Source: Paracoccaceae bacterium
GTDB taxonomy: Bacteria; Pseudomonadota; Alphaproteobacteria; Rhodobacterales; Rhodobacteraceae
Assembly: GCA_902534325.1 (NCBI GenBank)
Contig: CACAPQ010000022.1
Coordinates: forward strand, 1 to 34,824
Direction of reading: 5' to 3'
Length of the DNA: 34,824 nt
Both the position numbers and the translations under genes were made by a program. The notes beneath the pieces were generated by a model. That model ran no database searches. It was not told the DNA's origin and saw only the letters and a list, made by a program, of their open reading frames with translations. Of this stretch, positions 2 through 30,551 are shown in pieces. The stretch's first letter is position 1; each line of letters begins with the position of its first letter.

Positions 2-2176
2 GGAAAAACTATAGCCCATTTAAGCCAAGCCTCCAATGCAGATGTAAATAAAGCCGTTAAAATGGCAAAAAATGCATTCAAAATTTGGTCTGAAACTAAT
101 CCACACGAGAGAGCTAAAGTCCTTTACTCCATTGCTCGGCTTTTACAAAAAAACTCTCGGCTTTTTTCTGTGCTTGAAACAATTGATAATGGCAAACCGA
201 TAAGAGAATCCCGCGATATTGATATACCCTTAGCCCAGCGTCATTTTTACTATCATGCTGGCCTTGCCCAAATATATAAAACCAAGATCCGCGATATGGA
301 GCCAATTGGGGTATGTGGCCAAATAATCCCTTGGAACTTTCCACTTTTAATGTTGGCATGGAAAATCGCACCCGCTTTAGCAGCAGGTAATACAGTTGTT
401 TTAAAACCAGCTGAATACACATCTTTGACTGCGTTATTATTTGCTGAAATTTGTATCGAGGCTGGGGTACCAAACGGTGTTGTAAATATTATTACTGGCG
501 ATGGTAGTGTTGGGGAAATGCTTGTTGATCACCCTGACATTAAAAAAGTTGCGTTTACAGGATCTACTGAAGTTGGCCGAATAATAAGAAAAAGAACTGC
601 CGGTACTGGAAAACTTTTAACTCTGGAGTTGGGTGGAAAATCACCATTTATTGTTTTTGACGATGCTGATTTAGATAGTGCTGTAGAGGGCTTGGTGGAT
701 GCTATATGGTTCAACCAAGGTCAAGTCTGTTGCGCTGGATCCAGGCTTTTAGTTCATGAAAGCATAGAGGAAAAGTTTCACAAGAAAATCCGAAAAAGAA
801 TGAACAAACTGCGAGTTGGGCACCCTCTCGACAAATCTATAGATATGGGTGCAATTATTGATAAGTCTCAATTATCAAAAATTAGAAAGCTAGTATCTCA
901 AACAGAAGGTAGTGTTTATCACGCTGAATGTGATTTGCCAAAAGAGGGTCTTTTCTATCGGCCAACTCTAATTACAGGCCTTTCCCCCTCTGATAAATTA
1001 ATGCAAGAAGAAATTTTTGGACCTGTTTTAGTAAGTACAACCTTTAGGACACCGAAAGAAGCCTCTGACTTGGCAAACGATACCACCTATGGGTTGGCAG
1101 CAAGTATATGGAGCGAGAATATTAATTTAGCTTTAGGCTTAGCGCCAAAAATAAAAGCTGGGGTCATCTGGGTAAACGGAACCAACATGTTTGATGCCGC
1201 AATTGGCTTTGGTGGAGTTAAGGAAAGCGGCTTTGGTCGTGAAGGCGGATGGAATGGATTAAAAAGCTATTTAAAGCATTCCATAAATTTTACCTTACAA
1301 AAAAACAAAAGCCCACAGAGCTATTCTCGTGAAGAAACTCTGGGTTTGGACAGAACTGCTAAACTTTATATTGGTGGAAAACAGACAAGGCCCGATGGCG
1401 GTTACTCACAGAAAGTTTTTAATGCATCAAAAAACTTTGTCGGACATGTCTCAGCTGCTAATAGAAAAGATATTCGAAATGCTGTTGAAGCAATGAATAA
1501 GGCTTATAGTTGGTCTACTTCCTCAGGACATTTGCGAGCTCAGATAATTTATTTTATGGCAGAAAACCTTCACGCCAGAAGAGAAGAGTTCGCAAAACGT
1601 ATAAACCAAATGTCTGGCCATAAAGATGGCTCAAAAGAGGTTGAGCTGTCTATTAGGCGCCTTTTTACATATGCGGCATGGGCCGACAAATTTGACGGTA
1701 CAATTAGCGGTGTTCCAGTAAGGGGTGTGGGCTTAACAATGCGAGAAGCCATCGGAAATATAATAGCTTTTTGCCCACCAAACAAACCTCTGCTTTCGTT
1801 AATCTCTTGTATCGCCCCAGCGATAGCGATGGGAAACCGAATTACTACGATTTCACCTTTTATTGCATCAATGACAGCAACAGACTTTTATCAAATATTA
1901 GAGACATCAGACATTCCTCCTGGTGTTGTAAATATATTAACTGGAAGCCATCTAGAGCTAGCCTCACACGCCGCCAGTCATATGGATGTCGACTCTATTT
2001 GGTCTTTTTCCGAAGAAGATATAACTAAGATTATTGAGTTAGAATCCGCGAAAAATATTAAGCGTACTTGGTGCCTGAAAAATATTGATTGGCTAGACAA
2101 AAGGGCGGAAGGAGAGATGTTTCTTGATGCCGCAACAGAAACAAAAAGTGTTTGGATTCCTTATGGCGAGGGCTGA
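2..2176 (+). CDS. Two-domain aldehyde dehydrogenase (ALDH16-like), 5' end outside window
   Basis: NAD(P)-dependent oxidation of an aldehyde to the acid is the expected reaction; the substrate cannot be read from sequence. The frame is open from base 2, so the true start lies upstream and only the last 724 codons are visible. The first domain has the Rossmann-type PWNFP segment near base 330, the general-base Glu in ELGGKSP (codon 626-628) and the catalytic Cys in GQVCCAGSR (728-730). After about base 1340 a second ALDH-like domain begins (LYIGGK, then a REAIGN...APAIAMGN segment), but it ends without a catalytic Glu/Cys pair. This active-plus-degenerate layout is typical of bacterial ALDH16 proteins. 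In Rhodobacterales such genes often follow deoC, which cannot be checked here. The last 16 bases overlap the convergent transglycosylase gene. Confidence 0.9.
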   Translation, partial: GKTIAHLSQASNADVNKAVKMAKNAFKIWSETNPHERAKVLYSIARLLQKNSRLFSVLETIDNGKPIRESRDIDIPLAQRHFYYHAGLAQIYKTKIRDMEPIGVCGQIIPWNFPLLMLAWKIAPALAAGNTVVLKPAEYTSLTALLFAEICIEAGVPNGVVNIITGDGSVGEMLVDHPDIKKVAFTGSTEVGRIIRKRTAGTGKLLTLELGGKSPFIVFDDADLDSAVEGLVDAIWFNQGQVCCAGSRLLVHESIEEKFHKKIRKRMNKLRVGHPLDKSIDMGAIIDKSQLSKIRKLVSQTEGSVYHAECDLPKEGLFYRPTLITGLSPSDKLMQEEIFGPVLVSTTFRTPKEASDLANDTTYGLAASIWSENINLALGLAPKIKAGVIWVNGTNMFDAAIGFGGVKESGFGREGGWNGLKSYLKHSINFTLQKNKSPQSYSREETLGLDRTAKLYIGGKQTRPDGGYSQKVFNASKNFVGHVSAANRKDIRNAVEAMNKAYSWSTSSGHLRAQIIYFMAENLHARREEFAKRINQMSGHKDGSKEVELSIRRLFTYAAWADKFDGTISGVPVRGVGLTMREAIGNIIAFCPPNKPLLSLISCIAPAIAMGNRITTISPFIASMTATDFYQILETSDIPPGVVNILTGSHLELASHAASHMDVDSIWSFSEEDITKIIELESAKNIKRTWCLKNIDWLDKRAEGEMFLDAATETKSVWIPYGEG

Positions 2177-15058: not shown

Positions 15059-15888
15059 TTTATTAATATCTCTCTGAGTTCTTCAGTAACTAAAGGTTTT
15101 TGGCCAAACCAAGCTTCAAAACCTGGTATTCCCTGGTGAATTAACATGCCTAAGCCATCAACCGTTCTGGATCCTCTATTTTTTGCCATTTTCAATAAAT
15201 TTGTTTCTAAAGGCGTGTAAACCAAATCTGAAACAAGAGCTTTTTTAGGTATAGCCTTTGGGTTGATAGCAATAAATGTTTCATCATTCATTCCCAATGA
15301 GGTAGTATTGATGATATTACTGCTCGAGGCCGCTACTTCATTTATATTTTTCCAAGACTCAACAGTGATTTTATTATCGTAATCTTTTTTAAGTGCTTCA
15401 GCTTTTTCAATAGTCCTGTTTAGAACTATTATTTTTTCTGAGCCTTCTGACAATAACGCAGCTATAACCGCTCTACTTGCTCCTCCTGCTCCTAATACTA
15501 CTGACGTTCCTTTTTTTGGATTCCAGTCTGGATATTTGCCTTTGATATTATTTATAAAACCGTAAGCATCTGTATTATCAGCATATATTTTATTTTCTTT
15601 AGTAAAAGTTAAAGTGTTCGCTGCGCCGATATATTGGGCTGTTCTTGAGCTTTCATCTGCTATCTCAAGAGCTGATAACTTATAAGGTATAGTGACGTTA
15701 ACTCCAGAAAAACCCATACACACCAAAGCGCGTATAGTTTGCTCAAAATCTTCTAGTTCAACTTTTATTGGTATATAATAACCATTTAGTTTGTTTTGCT
15801 TTAACCAATAGTTGTGCATTCTAGGCGATTTTGAGTGGGATATTGGATTACCTAAAACAGCTGCTAAACGTGGCCTTGCCTCATCCAT
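15055..15888 (-). CDS. aroE: Shikimate dehydrogenase
   Basis: NADPH-dependent reduction of 3-dehydroshikimate to shikimate in aromatic amino-acid synthesis. Substrate-binding NPISHSKSPRMHN (about 16-28), catalytic Lys in NVTIPYK, NTDAYGF (Asp partner) and the NADP loop GAGGASRAV are all visible. The 277-residue length is normal. It overlaps the maf stop by eight bases and coaE by four. Confidence 0.96.
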   Translation of the reverse strand: MDEARPRLAAVLGNPISHSKSPRMHNYWLKQNKLNGYYIPIKVELEDFEQTIRALVCMGFSGVNVTIPYKLSALEIADESSRTAQYIGAANTLTFTKENKIYADNTDAYGFINNIKGKYPDWNPKKGTSVVLGAGGASRAVIAALLSEGSEKIIVLNRTIEKAEALKKDYDNKITVESWKNINEVAASSSNIINTTSLGMNDETFIAINPKAIPKKALVSDLVYTPLETNLLKMAKNRGSRTVDGLGMLIHQGIPGFEAWFGQKPLVTEELREILIK

Positions 15889-16480
15889 CTATTACACCTC
15901 TAATACACAGAAAGTTTATAATTTCTAGTAGTGGCATACCCAAAATAGAGAAGTAATCACCATTAATCTTTGAAAACAAACGGCAACCTTCTTCTTCTAT
16001 TTTATACCCAGCCACACTATTTTTGATACTATCCCAATTTCTATTTACATAGTCAGAAATGTACTCCTCACTATTGTTTTTTAACAATAGATCCGCTTTA
16101 CCAACGAAACGCCAGATAGGTTTAGAATTTTCGAATATAACTGCTGCGGAATATGCACTGTGCTTTTTTCCTGAAATTTTCATTAATTGCTGAACAGCTA
16201 AATTTTTAGACGGCGGTTTCTCCAATAAAGTGCCTTCAAATTCTAAGACTTGATCGCATCCCAATACCAAACTATCTGGGTTTTTTAAAGAAATCTTACT
16301 AGCTTTTAATTCTGCCAATGCATCTGCCATGTCGCGAGGAGAGTAATTTTCAAACAATAAAGAGGATTTTACAGCACCTTCATCTATATTTGGCTTTACT
16401 GATACGAATGATATATTTGACTTTTCTAACAGTTCTTTTCTTACTTCAGAAGAAGACGCTAATATAAGTTCTCCGCTCAT
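15881..16480 (-). CDS. maf: Maf-family nucleoside triphosphate pyrophosphatase
   Basis: Hydrolyses non-canonical or modified NTPs to NMP and pyrophosphate. The N-terminal LILASSSEVRKELLEK signature, NIDEGAVK (Glu/Asp metal region), GCDQVLEF and the central SGKKHSAYSAA motif identify it. I choose ATG 16480 (MSGELILASSS) because GGA precedes it by seven bases; ATG 16492 is in frame but lacks a Shine-Dalgarno sequence. It is the first gene of the leftward operon and borders the putative origin. Confidence 0.93.
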   Translation of the reverse strand: MSGELILASSSEVRKELLEKSNISFVSVKPNIDEGAVKSSLLFENYSPRDMADALAELKASKISLKNPDSLVLGCDQVLEFEGTLLEKPPSKNLAVQQLMKISGKKHSAYSAAVIFENSKPIWRFVGKADLLLKNNSEEYISDYVNRNWDSIKNSVAGYKIEEEGCRLFSKINGDYFSILGMPLLEIINFLCIRGVIDG

Positions 16481-16501
16481 TAATAAATCCATGTATGGGT
16501 T

Positions 16502-16510
16502 TGTGGATAA
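16502..16510 (-). promoter_or_regulatory. Perfect DnaA box
   Basis: TGTGGATAA reads as TTATCCACA on the minus strand, identical to the high-affinity consensus. It lies only ten bases outside the upstream possible maf start at 16492, so DnaA bound here could also affect maf operon transcription. Confidence 0.65.
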
Positions 16511-16705
16511 AAAATGTTTTGTTTCACTGTATTTGTTAACACTATATTTTTTTTTTATGTTTTTAATTTATTCTGTTCTTTATAATAAATAAAATATATT
16601 TTATCCTTTGTGAGTATGAACTTTAATAATAACCCACAAATTGTTAATTAAAGTTTTTTTTCCTATTTTTTAATTACTTACAGAGAAATTTTATTCGATT
16701 AAGAA

Positions 16706-16727
16706 TGTGGATGAAATTTGATCCACA
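16706..16727. promoter_or_regulatory. Facing pair of DnaA-like boxes in a near-perfect palindrome
   Basis: Arms TGTGGAT (16706-16712) and ATCCACA (16721-16727) are exact inverted repeats around an eight-base spacer, GAAATTTG. Each arm is a one-mismatch DnaA box. Across all 22 bases the element differs from its own reverse complement only at one symmetrical base pair in the spacer. It could be a cooperative DnaA site or an operator for another dimeric regulator. Confidence 0.55.
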
Positions 16728-16860
16728 TTATTTTTTATACCTACAACATCTTCTATACCTTATATAAATATTATTTTTTTTAGGACTTAAAACTTTAATT
16801 TTTCTTCTAATTAGATGGAGAAACCAATAATTAACAATTTTTTAACAAGTTGACTCAATT

Positions 16861-16936
16861 TGGTACTCAGTGTACCGAAACCCCCACAACACTATTCTGT
16901 GTTGGCTTTCAATATTTTTTGTATGCAGGTACCGGT
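16861..16936 (+). promoter_or_regulatory. Probable rho leader with two inverted repeats
   Basis: Between a TTGACT (-35-like) hexamer at 16850-16855 and the rho start are two short inverted repeats: GGTAC/GTACC around a five-base loop (16862-16876) and CAACAC/GTGTTG around a six-base loop (16887-16904). No good -10 hexamer is seen at the right distance. Rho leaders are commonly autoregulated in bacteria, so these could be control hairpins; that is inference from position only. Confidence 0.35.
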
Positions 16937-18208
16937 ATGTCTTCTACTCGCTTAAATCTATCCGATTTAAAGGTTAAGAGCCCTAAAGATCTTCTTTCTA
17001 TGGCAGAAGAACTAGAAATAGAAAATGCATCAACTATGCGCAAGGGTGAAATTATGTTTCAGATCTTACGCGAAAGAGCAGACGAAGGGTGGGAGATTGC
17101 GGGAGATGGTGTTCTTGAAGTTTTACAAGACGGCTTTGGTTTTTTAAGGTCGCCTGAAGCTAACTATTTACCAGGTCCAGATGATATTTACGTATCCCCA
17201 GAAATGATTAGAAAATACTCATTAAGAACAGGTGATACGATAGAGGGATTAATAAAATCACCAGAAGATAACGAAAGGTACTTTGCTTTAATTGAAGCGC
17301 ACCAAATCAATTTTCAAGATCCTGATAAAGCAAAACATAAAATAGCTTTCGATAACCTTACACCACTATATCCTGATGAGCGCCTCATTATGGAAATAGA
17401 AGATCCAACGGTTAAAGATAAATCAGCGAGAGTTATAGATTTAGTAGCGCCTATTGGTAAGGGCCAACGGTCACTTATTGTTGCGCCGCCAAGAACTGGT
17501 AAGACAGTCATCCTACAAAATATAGCCCACAGTATAGAGCAAAATCACCCAGAGTGTTATCTAATAGTTCTACTTATAGATGAGAGACCAGAGGAAGTTA
17601 CTGATATGCAAAGGTCAGTAAAAGGAGAGGTGATATCTTCTACTTTCGATGAGCCCGCAGCTAGGCATGTAGCAGTATCAGAAATGGTGATAGAAAAAGC
17701 AAAGCGACTTGTTGAACATAAGCGGGATGTTGTTATTCTTTTGGATTCTATAACCCGGCTGGGCAGGGCATTTAACACCGTAATACCCTCATCAGGTAAA
17801 GTTTTAACAGGTGGAGTGGATGCAAATGCTCTTCAAAGACCAAAAAGGTTCTTTGGGGCTGCTCGAAATATAGAAGAAGGCGGTTCATTAACCATCATAT
17901 CTACAGCTTTGATAGATACAGGCAGTAGAATGGATGAAGTTATTTTTGAAGAATTTAAAGGAACAGGCAACAGTGAAATCGTGTTAGACAGAAAAGTTGC
18001 CGATAAAAGGGTTTTCCCAGCTATTGATATATTGAAGTCTGGTACACGAAAAGAAGACCTTCTTATAGATAAAATTGATTTACAAAAAACATTTGTTTTA
18101 AGGCGTATTCTAAATCCAATGGGAACGACAGATGGGATTGAATTTCTTTTATCAAAACTAAAACAAACAAAGACAAATACTGAGTTCTTCGATTCTATGA
18201 ATACCTGA
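16937..18208 (+). CDS. rho: Transcription termination factor Rho
   Basis: Hexameric RNA-dependent ATPase/helicase that ends transcription. Residues about 50-125 form the RNA-binding cold-shock domain ([22 protein letters not shown]), the Walker A motif is PPRTGKT (about 184-190), Walker B lies in [12 protein letters not shown], and the Q-loop region [22 protein letters not shown] follows. Length is 423 residues. The frame is open from 16850, but ATG 16937 ([12 protein letters not shown]) matches the family N-terminus and has AGGT seven bases upstream, so the 29 extra codons are treated as leader. First gene of the rho-mnmE-mnmG-rsmG-parA-parB run. Confidence 0.96.
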
Positions 18209-19516: not shown

Positions 19517-19532
19517 TGTTTCACGTGAAACA
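19517..19532. other. parS: parS centromere site 1, across the mnmG start
   Basis: TGTTTCACGTGAAACA is a perfect 16-base palindrome identical to the chromosomal parS consensus bound by ParB/Spo0J. It covers the mnmG start codon and lies about 2.8 kb from the putative oriC and 3.3 kb from parB. The chance of an exact 16-base match in a 35-kb window is negligible, and there is a second copy. Confidence 0.92.
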
Positions 19533-21390: not shown

Positions 21391-22004
21391 AAGATGATAT
21401 CCTAATAGATGTTTCACGTGAAACAATAGTACTCTTACAGCGGCTGGGGTTACTTGTTGAAAAGTGGAATAAAAGTATAAATTTAATATCTAAAAGTACC
21501 GTACCTGAAATATGGAGTCGTCATGTTTTAGACTCAGCCCAGATTTTTTATGCTAGCAACAAAAAATTTAAAAAATGGCTGGATATGGGATCTGGGGCAG
21601 GATTTCCTGGATTGGTCGTGGCAATTCTTGCTCAGGATAGGAATTTTGGTGGTGAGATAACCTTGGTTGAGAGCGATAAAAGAAAATGTGTTTTCCTCAG
21701 CACAGTAAAAAGAGAATTAAATCTTAATTTATCTATTATAAACAATAGGATAGAGCGCTGTAATAGACAAAAAGCCGATGTAATATCAGCGAGGGCTTTA
21801 GCTGACCTACCCAGGCTTCTTGAGCTATCATTTAATCATTTGAGTAATAATGCAACTCTCATATTTGCAAAGGGAAAGTCTTGGCAAGAAGAGTTGGTAG
21901 CTGCAGAGAAAACTTGGAACTTTAGTTGGGAAGCGGTTACCAGTATAACTGATCCAAAGTCAGTAGTTCTGAAAATAGGAGAGCTTTCGCGTGCCAACCA
22001 ATAA
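21387..22004 (+). CDS. rsmG: 16S rRNA (guanine527-N7)-methyltransferase RsmG (GidB)
   Basis: Uses S-adenosylmethionine to methylate G527 of 16S rRNA; loss gives low-level streptomycin resistance in several bacteria. The SAM motif [13 protein letters not shown] is at about residues 67-79, followed by [11 protein letters not shown] and the catalytic-region [14 protein letters not shown]. Length is 205 residues. ATG 21387 overlaps the mnmG stop as ATGA. Residues 9-13 (VSRET) are encoded by the second parS site, and that peptide is common near the N-terminus of alphaproteobacterial RsmG. Confidence 0.95.
21410..21425. other. parS: parS centromere site 2, inside rsmG
   Basis: A second exact copy of the 16-base palindrome TGTTTCACGTGAAACA. 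It is read in the rsmG frame as V-S-R-E-T, so it must meet both protein-coding and ParB-binding constraints. It lies about 1.9 kb from site 1 and about 0.6 kb before parA. Confidence 0.92.
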
Positions 22005-22785
22005 GTCCAAAACTGCAAAAATAATCTCAGTGACAAATCAGAAAGGTGGAGTTGGCAAAACAACTACAACAATCAACTTAGCAGCGGCATTGTCACAACT
22101 AGAAAAGAAGGTTCTAATTATAGATTTGGATCCACAAGGAAATGCATCCACTGGTTTGGGTGTAGAGGTAGAAGATCGAGAATTATCGACATATGAATTT
22201 TTGATCGAGGGTGTTCCACTAGAAAAGGTGACAATGGAAACAGAAATATCCGGTCTAAACATTGTTCCAGCAACAATAGATTTGAGCTCAGCTGATATAG
22301 ATTTGATATCAAACGAAAAAAGAAGCCATTTATTGCATGCGGCACTGCGAAAAAAACAACAAGACAAACAAAAATATGACTATATACTGATTGATTGTCC
22401 ACCATCGTTAAACATTTTAACGGTTAACGCGATGGTTGCATCTCACTCTGTTTTAATTCCACTACAGAGTGAGTTTTTTGCACTTGAGGGACTCTCACAA
22501 CTTTTATTAACAGTTAAAGAAGTGCGTCAAACCGCAAATGAAAATCTTCGGGTTGAAGGTATAGTTTTAACCATGTTTGATGGAAGAAACAATCTATCTA
22601 AACAAGTAGAAGCTGATGCTAGAAGTAATCTGCGCGAGTTAGTTTTTAAAACGATCATTCCGCGGAATGTTCGGGTAAGTGAGGCACCTTCGTATTCAAT
22701 GCCTGTTTTAACTTATGATCCTTCTTCAAAGGGATCCAAGGCGTATATGAGTTTGGCCAAAGAGTTATTAGCTAATAATTCTTGA
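21991..22785 (+). CDS. parA: Chromosome-partitioning ATPase ParA (Soj)
   Basis: Deviant Walker ATPase that drives movement of ParB-parS complexes. Walker A KGGVGKTT is at residues 18-25 with the signature first Lys, Walker A' is LIIDLDPQGNAST, and Walker B is YILIDCPPSL. There is no N-terminal HTH, as in chromosomal type Ib ParA. Length is 264 residues. The start is GTG 21991 with AGGAG nine bases upstream; it overlaps rsmG by 14 bases. parB follows 13 bases after the stop. Confidence 0.96.
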   Translation: MPTNKSKTAKIISVTNQKGGVGKTTTTINLAAALSQLEKKVLIIDLDPQGNASTGLGVEVEDRELSTYEFLIEGVPLEKVTMETEISGLNIVPATIDLSSADIDLISNEKRSHLLHAALRKKQQDKQKYDYILIDCPPSLNILTVNAMVASHSVLIPLQSEFFALEGLSQLLLTVKEVRQTANENLRVEGIVLTMFDGRNNLSKQVEADARSNLRELVFKTIIPRNVRVSEAPSYSMPVLTYDPSSKGSKAYMSLAKELLANNS

Positions 22786-22798
22786 TAGGAGGTTTTTG

Positions 22799-23695
22799 AT
22801 GGTAGAAAAAAAAGGTAAATCAAGGGGTCTTGGGCGAGGTTTGTCATCTTTGATGGGCGACTTTAATAACGAGCCTGTAAGCAGCAGTATAAATTCAGAA
22901 AATCAGGCATTTGAGAAACTTGTGCCGGTTGAGAAAATATATCCAAACCCAAATCAGCCTAGAAAATCTTTTCAAGAAGAAAAATTAATTGAATTAGCAA
23001 ATTCGATTAAAACGAAAGGCATAGTCCAACCCTTAATAGTTAGAGAAAAGAAAGGAACAAAAGAAAGTTTTGAAATAGTTGCAGGCGAACGACGATGGCG
23101 CGCCGCTCAAAGAGCTCAAATCCATGAGCTACCAGTCATTGTAAAGGAGTTCACTGATATAGAGGTTCTAGAAATAGCCATAATTGAAAATGTTCAAAGG
23201 GCTGATCTAAACCCAATAGAAGAAGCTCTTGGATACAAAAATTTGATGGACAATTTTGATCACACTCAGGAAGGGCTTTCTAAAGAAATTGGAAAAAGTA
23301 GAAGCCATATAGCCAACCTATTGCGACTACTTAATCTTCCGACAGCAGTTCAAGAATTGTTGATTTCAGGGAAACTGACGGCGGGGCATGCTCGGGCTTT
23401 GGTGACATGTGACAATCCATTAGCTATAGCAAAACAGATTATTTCACTTGGCCTTTCGGTAAGGGATGCAGAACGGTTGGCTAAAAATGTTAGTGAGAAA
23501 AAAGTTTCGAATAAAACAAAAACAAAAGAGAAACCCGCCGATACAGTTCTTTTGGAAGCTGATCTATCTGCAGCACTTAAGATGAAAGTCTCCATTAACC
23601 ACGAAGAGGGAAAAGAAAAAGGTTTAATGTCAATAACTTATAAATCTTTGGACGAATTAGATCGTATTTCTGAAGTGATACTAAATGGTAGCTGA
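22799..23695 (+). CDS. parB: Chromosome-partitioning protein ParB (CTP-dependent DNA clamp)
   Basis: Binds parS and spreads along DNA as a CTP-switched clamp, recruiting ParA and SMC. N-terminal Arg-rich LGRGLSSLMG matches the ParA-stimulating region. CTP-binding motifs are NPNQPRK, GERRWRA (residues 96-102) and ENVQRADLNPIEEA (from about 130). The HTH region (GLSKEIGKSRSHIANLLRLL) and a C-terminal dimerisation domain follow. ATG 22799 has TAGGAGG six bases upstream; a TTG one codon earlier is less likely. Its two cognate sites lie upstream in mnmG and rsmG. It converges with hemW with an 11-base gap. Confidence 0.96.
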   Translation: MVEKKGKSRGLGRGLSSLMGDFNNEPVSSSINSENQAFEKLVPVEKIYPNPNQPRKSFQEEKLIELANSIKTKGIVQPLIVREKKGTKESFEIVAGERRWRAAQRAQIHELPVIVKEFTDIEVLEIAIIENVQRADLNPIEEALGYKNLMDNFDHTQEGLSKEIGKSRSHIANLLRLLNLPTAVQELLISGKLTAGHARALVTCDNPLAIAKQIISLGLSVRDAERLAKNVSEKKVSNKTKTKEKPADTVLLEADLSAALKMKVSINHEEGKEKGLMSITYKSLDELDRISEVILNGS

Positions 23696-26290: not shown

Positions 26291-27361
26291 ATGATTGAAA
26301 AAAAAGAAATTCTTGAGGAAATGAACAACCGCTCGCGAGAAGTATTTCGTCGGGTAGTAGAAGGTTATTTGACAGATGGTGAGCCTGTTGGATCGAGAAC
26401 CCTTTCGCGAGAATTTAGTGAAGATATTTCTGCTGCAACAATTAGAAATGTTATGCAAGACTTAGAGTTTTTAGGACTACTAGGAAGCCCACATACAAGT
26501 GCTGGCCGAATACCCACTCAGCTAGGCTTACGAATGTTTGTTGATGGCATTTTGGAGGTATCAGAGGTCGATAAAAATGATAGGAAAAAAATTGATAAGA
26601 TAGTTTCAGATGAAACTAATCAAGTAGAAGATATTTTAGATGACATTTCGACAACTTTATCAGGTGTGACCCAAGGAGCCTCGCTTGTTTTAACACCAAA
26701 ACGCGAAGCTCCAATTAAGCATGTGGAGTTTTTACCTTTATCAACAAGCCAAGCTCTTGTTGTCTTAGTTTTTGCTGACGGTCATGTTGAAAATCGGCTA
26801 TTTAAGCCCCCACCGGGTCAAACGCCAAGCTCTATGAAAGAAGCAGCAAATTTTTTAAATGCTATAATGGAGGGAAACACACTAAGCGAAGCTAAAAAAT
26901 TAATCAAAAATGAAATCGATTTCAGACGGCAAGAGCTTGATAATTTGGCTCGTGACTTAGTACAGAGTGGTTTAGCACTGTGGGAGGATACTGAAGAACG
27001 TCACGAACGATTAATTGTTAAAGGAAGAGCAAATCTCCTAAATGAATCTTCACAACAAGAAGACTTAGATAGAATAAAAAATCTATTTGACGATTTGGAA
27101 CGAAAACGCGATATAGCAGACTTCTTAGAGCTTACTGAAAAGGGTGAGGGGGTAAGAATTTTTATAGGGTCTGAAAACAAACTTTTTTCTTTAACGGGTT
27201 CATCTTTAGTTGTTTCTCCTTATATGAATTCGGATCGTAAGATTATTGGTGCTGTAGGAGTAATAGGACCTACAAGATTAAACTATGGTCGGATAGTTCC
27301 TGTGGTGGATTATACCGCGCAACTGGTTGGAAAAATGATTGCTGACCGAAATAAGAGGTGA
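26291..27361 (+). CDS. hrcA: Heat-inducible transcription repressor HrcA
   Basis: Represses groESL and sometimes dnaK by binding the CIRCE operator. An N-terminal winged helix (RSREVFRRVVEGYLTDGEPVGSRTLS, then ISAATIRNVMQDLEFLGLL and SPHTSAGRIPTQLG) is followed by the GAF-like dimerisation region with GAVGVIGPTRLNYGRIVPVVDY at the end. Length is about 356 residues. The frame is open into rph, but homology starts near ATG 26291; ATG 26321 (MNNRSREVF) has a better GAGG and is an alternative. No CIRCE repeat is seen in the gap upstream, so autoregulation is not evident. grpE follows three bases later. Confidence 0.94.
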   Translation: MIEKKEILEEMNNRSREVFRRVVEGYLTDGEPVGSRTLSREFSEDISAATIRNVMQDLEFLGLLGSPHTSAGRIPTQLGLRMFVDGILEVSEVDKNDRKKIDKIVSDETNQVEDILDDISTTLSGVTQGASLVLTPKREAPIKHVEFLPLSTSQALVVLVFADGHVENRLFKPPPGQTPSSMKEAANFLNAIMEGNTLSEAKKLIKNEIDFRRQELDNLARDLVQSGLALWEDTEERHERLIVKGRANLLNESSQQEDLDRIKNLFDDLERKRDIADFLELTEKGEGVRIFIGSENKLFSLTGSSLVVSPYMNSDRKIIGAVGVIGPTRLNYGRIVPVVDYTAQLVGKMIADRNKR

Positions 27362-27929: not shown

Positions 27930-30551
27930 TTAATTTTTCTGGGTTTCTTTTAGCTTGTAGAGAAACTCCAAAGCGTCCCTAGGTGATGTGTTGTCTAAAT
28001 TTATGTTTCTTATTTCTTCGTGAAGCGGGTCTACTTTTTTCTCCGTAGGTTCATGAAAATTTTGATCGTTGGAAAATAAGGGAAGATCGTTTATTAGCCC
28101 CTTTAAGTTTGATTGGCCTTGGTAGTGCCCCTTTTCAAGCTTTTCTAATATCAGTTTTGATCTTTTTATTACAGTCTCTGGCAAGCCAGCGAGCTTGGCG
28201 ACTTGAACTCCGTAGGACCGATCCGCGGCTCCTCTTATAACTTCATGTAAAAATACAACCTCACCTTCCCATTCTTTGACGGAAACAGTAGAGTTCTCTA
28301 ATCGATCCATTTCAACTGACAAATGGGTTAATTCATGATAATGTGTAGCAAATAGTGCTCGAGCCTTATTTACATTGTGCAAATGCTCTAAAGTAGCCCA
28401 AGCAATTGATAGGCCGTCATATGTTGCAGTTCCTCTACCAATTTCGTCTAGTATTACAAAAGAGTTTTCATCAGCTTGGTTTAGGATAGATGCGGTTTCC
28501 ACCATTTCGACCATAAAGGTAGATCGACCCCTAGCTAAATCGTCTGACGCACCTACTCGGCTAAAAAGCTGCGATACAATACCTATTTTGGCTGAAGTGG
28601 CAGGAACGAAACAACCAATTTGAGCCAATAAAACGATGATAGCATTTTGTCTCAGAAAAGTTGATTTTCCAGACATATTTGGCCCAGTAAGCAGGCAGAT
28701 TTTTCCATCGTTTAAGGTACATTCATTTGAAATAAATGCCTTCCCCTCTTTTTTAAGAGCGTGTTCAACTACAGGATGGCGCCCACCAGAAATTTCAAAA
28801 TTCTGTGATAAATCAACAGCGGGTTTAACCCAAGACTCATTTTTAGCTAGCACAGAAAAGGCAACAGCGAGATCTATTTCTGATAAATAATCGGCAACAT
28901 CGGCGATACATTGGCCATATTTTAATATTCTATCGCACAAATCCTTGAAGGTTTGTTTTTCTATCTCCAGAGAATGACTGGCAGCGTTTAAAATCTTAGT
29001 TTCAATCGCAGAAAGCTCAACAGTTGAAAAACGAACCTGATTTGCTGTTGTTTGTCTATGGATAAAGGTATCAGACAAAGGGGGTGATAACATGCGCTCG
29101 GCATGGGTGGCTGGTGTTTCGATAAAATATCCGAGAACATTGTTATGTTTTATTTTAAGAGACTGAATGCCAGCGGTTTTCACATAGCCCATTTGCATCT
29201 CGGCAATGATCTTTTTCCCTTCGTTTTTTAGTCTTCTGGCTTCATCTAATTTGGGATCAAAACCCTCTCTAATAAATCCGCCGTCTCTTGCCAATATAGG
29301 CGGTTCATCCACAAGGGCTTCGGACATTAAGTCTAAAAATTTGTCTTTTTCTGGAAAGATAGCCGACTTCTCTCTAATGAGTTTTGGCAAAGTGAAACCT
29401 GAAAGCATCTTTGATATAGTGGAGGATTGTAGCAATCCATTTCTAATAGACACCAGGTCTCTTGGGCCAGCCCTTTCCAATGAAATTCTGGATAATGCTC
29501 TATCTAAATCAGGAACTTTTCTGAGTTCTGACCGAAGGCTAGATGATAAGTCTGCATAAGCTATCATAAAATCTAGACCGTTTAATCTTTTTTCTATTTC
29601 ATCTAGATTAGTAGAGGGGGCAGACACTCTTTTTTCTAATAATCTTGCCCCACCTGATGTTAAAGTATGATCAATTACCGAAAGAAGTGAGCCAGATTTA
29701 TTTCCAGAAGAAAGCCCCTTTGTTAGCTCTAAGTTTTTTCTAGTTGCTGTATCTATAGTCATAAAGGATGAGTTTAGTTCGCGCCTTGGTCTTGATAATG
29801 ATGGGAGCTTGCCCTTTTGTGTTATTTGTAAATATTCTATGATGGCTCCCATAGATGATAGTTCAGCCCTAGTGAAGGTTCCCAAGCCATCGACGGTCTC
29901 AACGTTAAAGGTTTTTTTTAAACGTTCTCGCGCGGAACTGCTGTCAAAAGCGGAATTTCCAAGCTCCGTTACACTGATACCAAACTCCTCTGCTAGATCC
30001 CGATGCGCTTTCGCTAAGTCTTCAGAGAGCAGAATTTCACTAGGAGAAAGTCTGGTTAATTCCGAGGCTAATCTTTCTGGCTTTATGCTAGAAATGTAAA
30101 AAGAACCCGTTGAAATATCGATCCAAGAAACTGATGCTTCTTCGTGTACCAAAGAATAAGAAGCCAGGTAGTTACTTTTCTTAGCGTCTAACAAGTTATC
30201 TTCTGTTATGGTTCCAGGGGTGACTAGCCTTACAACCTCTCTTCTAACTACAGCTTTGTAACCTCTTTTTTTTGCTTCTTCTGGGCTTTCCATTTGCTCA
30301 CAAATTGCAACGCGAAAACCTTTGTTTATTAATGTGTAAATATAGTTTTCTGCAGAATGATGAGGGACCCCACACATTGGTATATCTTCTCCACTATGCT
30401 TTCCTCGTTTTGTTAAAGCGATATCTAACGCGCTTGATGCAACTTTAGCATCTTCAAAAAATAACTCATAGAAATCGCCCATTCTGTAGAACAATAAAGC
30501 CTCAGAATAGTCAGATTTAATTTCCATGTATTGCGACATCATTGGTGTCAC
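27930..30551 (-). CDS. mutS: DNA mismatch repair protein MutS
   Basis: Recognises mismatches and small loops and recruits MutL. The N-terminal mismatch-binding domain includes FYRMGDFYELFFEDA, with the Phe-x-Glu-type wedge further upstream in the usual form; the ATPase has Walker A TGPNMSGKST, a FSRVGASDDLARGRSTFMVEM signature and LDEIGRGTATYDG. Length is 873 residues. The start is GTG 30551 with GGGAG seven bases upstream; ATG 30542 has no well-spaced site. It is leftward, convergent with grpE, and followed upstream by msrA in the same direction. Confidence 0.97.
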   Translation of the reverse strand: MTPMMSQYMEIKSDYSEALLFYRMGDFYELFFEDAKVASSALDIALTKRGKHSGEDIPMCGVPHHSAENYIYTLINKGFRVAICEQMESPEEAKKRGYKAVVRREVVRLVTPGTITEDNLLDAKKSNYLASYSLVHEEASVSWIDISTGSFYISSIKPERLASELTRLSPSEILLSEDLAKAHRDLAEEFGISVTELGNSAFDSSSARERLKKTFNVETVDGLGTFTRAELSSMGAIIEYLQITQKGKLPSLSRPRRELNSSFMTIDTATRKNLELTKGLSSGNKSGSLLSVIDHTLTSGGARLLEKRVSAPSTNLDEIEKRLNGLDFMIAYADLSSSLRSELRKVPDLDRALSRISLERAGPRDLVSIRNGLLQSSTISKMLSGFTLPKLIREKSAIFPEKDKFLDLMSEALVDEPPILARDGGFIREGFDPKLDEARRLKNEGKKIIAEMQMGYVKTAGIQSLKIKHNNVLGYFIETPATHAERMLSPPLSDTFIHRQTTANQVRFSTVELSAIETKILNAASHSLEIEKQTFKDLCDRILKYGQCIADVADYLSEIDLAVAFSVLAKNESWVKPAVDLSQNFEISGGRHPVVEHALKKEGKAFISNECTLNDGKICLLTGPNMSGKSTFLRQNAIIVLLAQIGCFVPATSAKIGIVSQLFSRVGASDDLARGRSTFMVEMVETASILNQADENSFVILDEIGRGTATYDGLSIAWATLEHLHNVNKARALFATHYHELTHLSVEMDRLENSTVSVKEWEGEVVFLHEVIRGAADRSYGVQVAKLAGLPETVIKRSKLILEKLEKGHYQGQSNLKGLINDLPLFSNDQNFHEPTEKKVDPLHEEIRNINLDNTSPRDALEFLYKLKETQKN

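Follow-up and report, generated by a model that had tools for sequence, protein, structure and literature searches.

In the draft genome of a Paracoccaceae bacterium (assembly GCA_902534325.1, designated G000; 2,094,639 bases across 74 contigs, with a completeness of 77.8%), the putative maf and rho genes (parA and parB nearby are likewise putative assignments) are transcribed divergently from an AT-rich gap on contig CACAPQ010000022.1 (C22), the entirety of which, 34,824 nucleotides, is the window analysed here. The rho start is most likely the ATG at 16937, because the DNA just upstream varies among congeners by lengths that are not divisible by three. Among the best 80 of at least 592 stretches with relatives of Rho, a list from which own or very near genomes may be missing, the best named relatives are Rhodobacteraceae, the top one being a metagenome-assembled genome of Marivita (92% identity). 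Because of its DnaA boxes, their recurrence at the same place in relatives, its unstable DNA and the switch in strand composition, which appears both as a local skew minimum and at fourfold-degenerate sites, the gap is interpreted as oriC, an ordinary DnaA-dependent chromosomal replication origin (probability about 0.93). A sequence-only reading that had placed a probable chromosomal origin between maf and rho is thereby supported.

Table 1. Features at and near the maf-rho gap, in positions of the window.
Feature	Position	Strand	Basis or remarks
Probable oriC, gap between divergent maf and rho	16493-16936	none	AT 76%, three DnaA boxes, skew switch, boxes at same place in family
DnaA box 1, TTATCCACA, perfect	16502-16510	-	9 of 9 columns invariant in six genus genomes, including that of the window
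DnaA box 2, TCATCCACA, one mismatch	16706-16714	-	6 of 9 columns invariant in six genus genomes; lost in G015
DnaA box 3, TGATCCACA, one mismatch, faces box 2	16719-16727	+	8 of 9 columns invariant in six genus genomes
Probable DNA unwinding element, least stable 100 bp of window	16531-16630	none	nearest-neighbour stability
maf, left flank	15881-16492	-	open reading frame and relatives
rho, right flank	16937-18208	+	open reading frame, relatives and start analysis
parS, perfect match, inside mnmG start	19518-19531	+	motif scan and list of open reading frames
parS, perfect match, inside rsmG start	21411-21424	+	motif scan and list of open reading frames
parA and parB	21991-23695	+	open reading frames; relatives in same order in G018, G024 and G028

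The AT content of the gap compares with a mean of 62% for the window. The extreme AT content claimed by the earlier reading is borne out: positions 16493-16860 are 79.6% AT (mean of all 368-bp windows, 61.7%), the AT-richest of these begins at 16481 (80.2%), and among those that begin at a distance of more than 500 bp the highest value is 69.8%. Nearest-neighbour stability in the window is lowest, for segments of 60, 100 and 200 bp, in those beginning at 16543, 16531 and 16506, respectively, which indicates an easily melted AT-rich segment.

One perfect DnaA box and two facing boxes with one mismatch each had been claimed for the gap, and all three were located (Table 1). They constitute a cluster above chance: in the gap (447 bp in the box counts, which include the rho ATG), three boxes compare with a shuffle mean of 0.18 and were reached in 0 of 2000 dinucleotide shuffles. 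Over the whole window there is no excess, with 13 boxes of at most one mismatch (expected 9.4; 15 of 100 shuffles reached 13). Three boxes are held by six of 688 overlapping 447-bp windows, of which five overlap the gap and one lies in mutS; the three near-boxes of mutS (29057-29495), equal in number to those of the gap, were taken as a chance occurrence in a stretch of 60% AT. The own assembly contains 99 matches to TNATCCACA (58 to the reversed control), of which three fall within 450 bp solely at the gap, and the inverted pair TGTGGAT-N(0-30)-ATCCACA occurs there at a single place, again the gap; no better cluster elsewhere was found for either pattern within the 78% of the genome that is assembled. 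The inverted pair is present in 8 of 16 genus genomes (reversed control, 1 of 16), and in G000, G001, G003, G004 and G014 it is found at the maf-rho gap alone. Across six genus genomes the second position is C or A in box 2 and G, T or A in box 3; mismatches at this position are also the commonest outside the gap, and the preference is therefore not special to the origin.

Conservation of the location was assessed in 86 maf-rho loci: 10 of the genus (the window included), 33 of other Rhodobacteraceae (assigned by kinship in the maf search or by record title), and 43 of other Alphaproteobacteria or unassigned. The maf gene was found in 58 of 61 genomes, the own genome included; 30 of these loci were drawn; in 23 of them the 1.5 kb that were fetched include rho, and 7 were dropped (4 reach a contig edge, 3 are without rho there). 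From the side of rho, maf lies upstream within reach in 63 of 80 loci and not in the other 17. In the 400 bp adjoining maf, the genus loci have 25 boxes (shuffle mean 1.4, largest of 500 shuffles 6), with at least one in 9 of 10 loci, and the 33 other family loci have 71 (shuffle mean 3.7, largest 10), with at least one in 32; the commonest box of the latter is TAATCCACA (11 of 71), the perfect TTATCCACA accounting for 9. The rho coding sequence has no box in 33 loci, and neither do the next 400 bp in 23. Beyond the family, ppsR and hemE both occur between maf and rho in 37 of the 43 remaining loci, in the order ppsR, box-rich gap, hemE, with 59 boxes in the 15.1 kb between these two genes versus 17 in the remaining 117 kb (raw counts, uncontrolled for base composition). 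The family keeps the boxes, but neither ppsR nor hemE occurs between maf and rho in any of its 43 loci. The gap is located at the place expected for a Rhodobacteraceae origin, and is nothing categorically new. The comparison suggests that genes directly beside the alphaproteobacterial origin are gained and lost, the origin itself remaining between the block of maf and that of rho-parAB, which can serve as a rule for locating oriC in fragmented genomes. The assignment of oriC to the gap fixes the origin, and hence the direction of the replichores, in a draft genome that is not amenable to a whole skew plot. Among the literature matches listed, no publication on Rhodobacteraceae puts maf, rho or gidA beside the origin in its title or the opening of its abstract.

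A minimum of cumulative GC skew had been expected at the gap. Locally, the window and all four congener contigs have it at this place: it falls between maf and rho in G001, G015 and G006 (in the last, just within hemJ, which belongs to the interval there), and shortly after the rho start in the other two, by 27 bp (position 16963) in the window and by 66 bp in G003. Genes near the gap are mostly directed away from it, which could mimic a skew switch; fourfold-degenerate sites give a reading that is independent of gene direction. At these sites, coding-strand skew is about zero (-0.003 to 0.038) in genes directed away from the gap in the window and the four congener contigs, and -0.15 to -0.18 in genes directed towards it in the four congener contigs (217, 99, 150 and 117 genes; permutation p = 0.0002 in each). 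In the window the values are 0.00 (away) versus -0.26 (towards) for 34 genes (p = 0.0014). A model with one switch gains 29.0 log units over a model with none in G001, 21.9 in G006, 16.1 in G015, 5.0 in the window and 2.0 in G003; the gap is the best boundary in two of the five (tied with the rho-mnmE boundary in the window) and at most 0.5 log units from the best in the other three. The fourfold-site skew supports a strand switch at the gap in the window and three congener contigs. In relatives with large contigs (G028, G018 and G024), where skew was sampled in 12-20 kb stretches, its sign changes at the maf-rho locus in two of three (G028 and G018). If the gap were merely a divergent promoter region, its AT-richness would derive from two gene starts and its boxes would control transcription of maf or rho; this would leave unexplained both the switch in strand composition at the gap and the retention of the box cluster throughout the family and, in other Alphaproteobacteria, between ppsR and hemE, and is considered very improbable.

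A location of the origin elsewhere, beside dnaA or hemE or within the missing 22% of the genome, is given hardly any credence. Initiation of replication next to dnaA is common in bacteria, a TTATTCACA is situated about 540 bp before dnaA, and the skew around dnaA (plain skew, not that of fourfold sites) changes sign several times; the 20 kb around dnaA (on contig C11), against this, contain 4 near-boxes, which are scattered, and in none of their 500-bp steps does AT exceed 66%. In favour of hemE, Caulobacter is described as starting replication next to that gene (PMC1914354, as excerpted), and on the opposite side, the 20 kb around hemE (on contig C1) have 8 boxes that are spread out, no step above 66% AT, and a skew that is zero or above throughout, hence no switch.

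Several observations weigh against oriC at the maf-rho gap. The boxes in the gap number only three, and the assembly is only 78% complete. The inverted pair is found solely elsewhere in three of the eight genomes that have it (G006, G015, and G005 at two places), and one of the ten genus loci (G013) is without any box of at most one mismatch beside maf. In other family members the 400 bp of maf coding sequence that adjoin the gap also have boxes, 20 in 32 loci; the next 400 bp deeper into maf have 7 in 33 loci. The IHF consensus WATCAN5WTR is absent from the gap and from five congener gaps, and the strict CtrA match of the window recurs in 0 of 5 congeners, both by consensus scans, which can miss real sites. 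The one-switch model is coarse: in the window, G001 and G003 it also scores boundaries kilobases away at no more than 0.5 units from the best. The short side of G003, with 11 genes, has the reverse fourfold pattern; because of this and of a switch gain of only 2.0, G003 is uninformative as a test of the switch. The positive side of G018 includes four weakly negative 20-kb samples (-0.006 to -0.037). The sign change of G024 is located at 2.72-2.76 Mb, its maf-rho gap being 150-190 kb away (2.91 Mb). The shifted switch of G024 is likely to reflect a rearranged block, because mutS, located at the switch, is about 175 kb from grpE, which it adjoins in the window and in G028.

The stretch of about 175 kb between mutS and grpE in G024 (G024:C3:2720001-2913000) has a skew opposite to that past mutS, as might be expected of a block rearranged or acquired near the origin.

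The origin of Caulobacter crescentus (Cori) is described as lying between hemE and COG1806 (PMC1914354, as excerpted). The earlier reading had assigned the window to the same neighbourhood, which agrees with the finding of ppsR (COG1806) and hemE together between maf and rho in the 37 other alphaproteobacterial loci and with their disappearance from the 43 family loci. The gap resembles Cori in this neighbourhood, in being AT-rich and in having DnaA boxes, of which box 3 is identical in sequence to the Caulobacter G-box TGATCCACA as given in the excerpted text of PMC4285127. Unlike Cori, it is flanked by maf and rho rather than by COG1806 (ppsR) and hemE, and it has one perfect box and is without the W-box TCCCCA, the IHF consensus or a strict CtrA site shared with congeners. 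By consensus scan, the strict CtrA pattern TTAA-N7-TTAA has one palindromic match in the gap (16831-16845; 0.37 strand matches expected); the loose pattern TTWW-N7-TTWW has 15 matches in the gap and 12 to 18 in congeners, above the 6.5 of mononucleotide shuffles, but these counts are inflated by runs of A/T. The lack of CtrA sites is less unusual because most other alphaproteobacterial origins show none, according to the excerpted part of a review (PMC4468827). For Rhodobacteraceae, oriC has been predicted in 101 strains, with 8 more unassignable (Kopejtka et al. 2019, PMC6699656); the excerpted method relies on nucleotide composition and DnaA boxes, curated by nearness to the GC disparity minimum, the local GC minimum and parAB, and each of these is seen locally in the window. 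It is conceivable, though doubtful, that in this AT-rich genus a stripped-down origin works with some three strong DnaA boxes next to a segment that melts, fixed IHF and CtrA sites being absent, so that DnaA alone controls initiation; its edges would earlier have lost ppsR and hemE (missing from each of the 43 family loci seen) and, in this sub-clade, hemJ.

Both parS sites that had been reported within 5 kb of the gap are perfect matches. They lie 2.6 and 4.5 kb from it and parAB 5-7 kb, an arrangement that corresponds to the alphaproteobacterial cluster of origin and parABS (parS within about 10 kb, parAB nearby). Almost all of 179 alphaproteobacterial genomes in a survey have parAB near the origin, the exceptions including Rhodobacterales (PMC8116508, as excerpted). 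By analogy with known origins, DnaA would bind to box 1 and, on the other side of the least stable DNA, to boxes 2 and 3, which face each other. The intervening segment would melt and two forks would depart in opposite directions, into maf and into rho, after which ParB on the parS sites may segregate the new copies. A third parS-like site, with two mismatches, is present within the hrcA reading frame (26603-26616).

The direction of the genes was said to change at the gap, with 15 of 19 to the left running leftward and 12 of 18 to the right running rightward; inspection by eye of the list of open reading frames reproduces the left-hand count and gives 11 of 17 complete genes on the right, the claimed number probably including a gene cut by the contig end. 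As had been stated, hemE is not among the genes of the window, and it was located on contig C1 (L033, G000:C1:168228-172235), off the origin contig, where it adjoins a gene that, judging by its protein start, is hemC-like.

Between oriC and rho, hemJ is present in 25 of 33 other family loci and in 29 of 43 family loci overall (one a remnant), and is missing from the maf-rho gap of the window; nor was it found in the own assembly, 78% complete. Contig C4 has a gene for a HemG-type protoporphyrinogen dehydrogenase (L253, G000:C4:5001-9000, positions 1635-2159, minus strand), which matches NF008316 with 210.6 bits (cut-off 142). Among 16 genus genomes there are HemJ matches in 5 and Flavodoxin_5 matches in 8; the two exclude each other in all but G002, where a remnant of hemJ persists at its former location; neither match was found in G007, G008, G011 and G012. 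HemG identity was checked for the G000 protein, the other genomes being represented by Flavodoxin_5 matches. From these distributions, hemJ has likely been replaced by a HemG-type gene. All 16 genomes have matches to TIGR00562 (HemY), none of which reaches the cut-off; they were not scored as HemY.

No Rfam family reaches its gathering score within the window. The rho leader (16850-16936) contains a short stem, CAACAC/GTGTTG, with T-rich DNA after it; whole-leader folds differ among six genus genomes, and the stem recurs with changes in congeners. This hairpin may possibly be part of a regulatory leader of rho.
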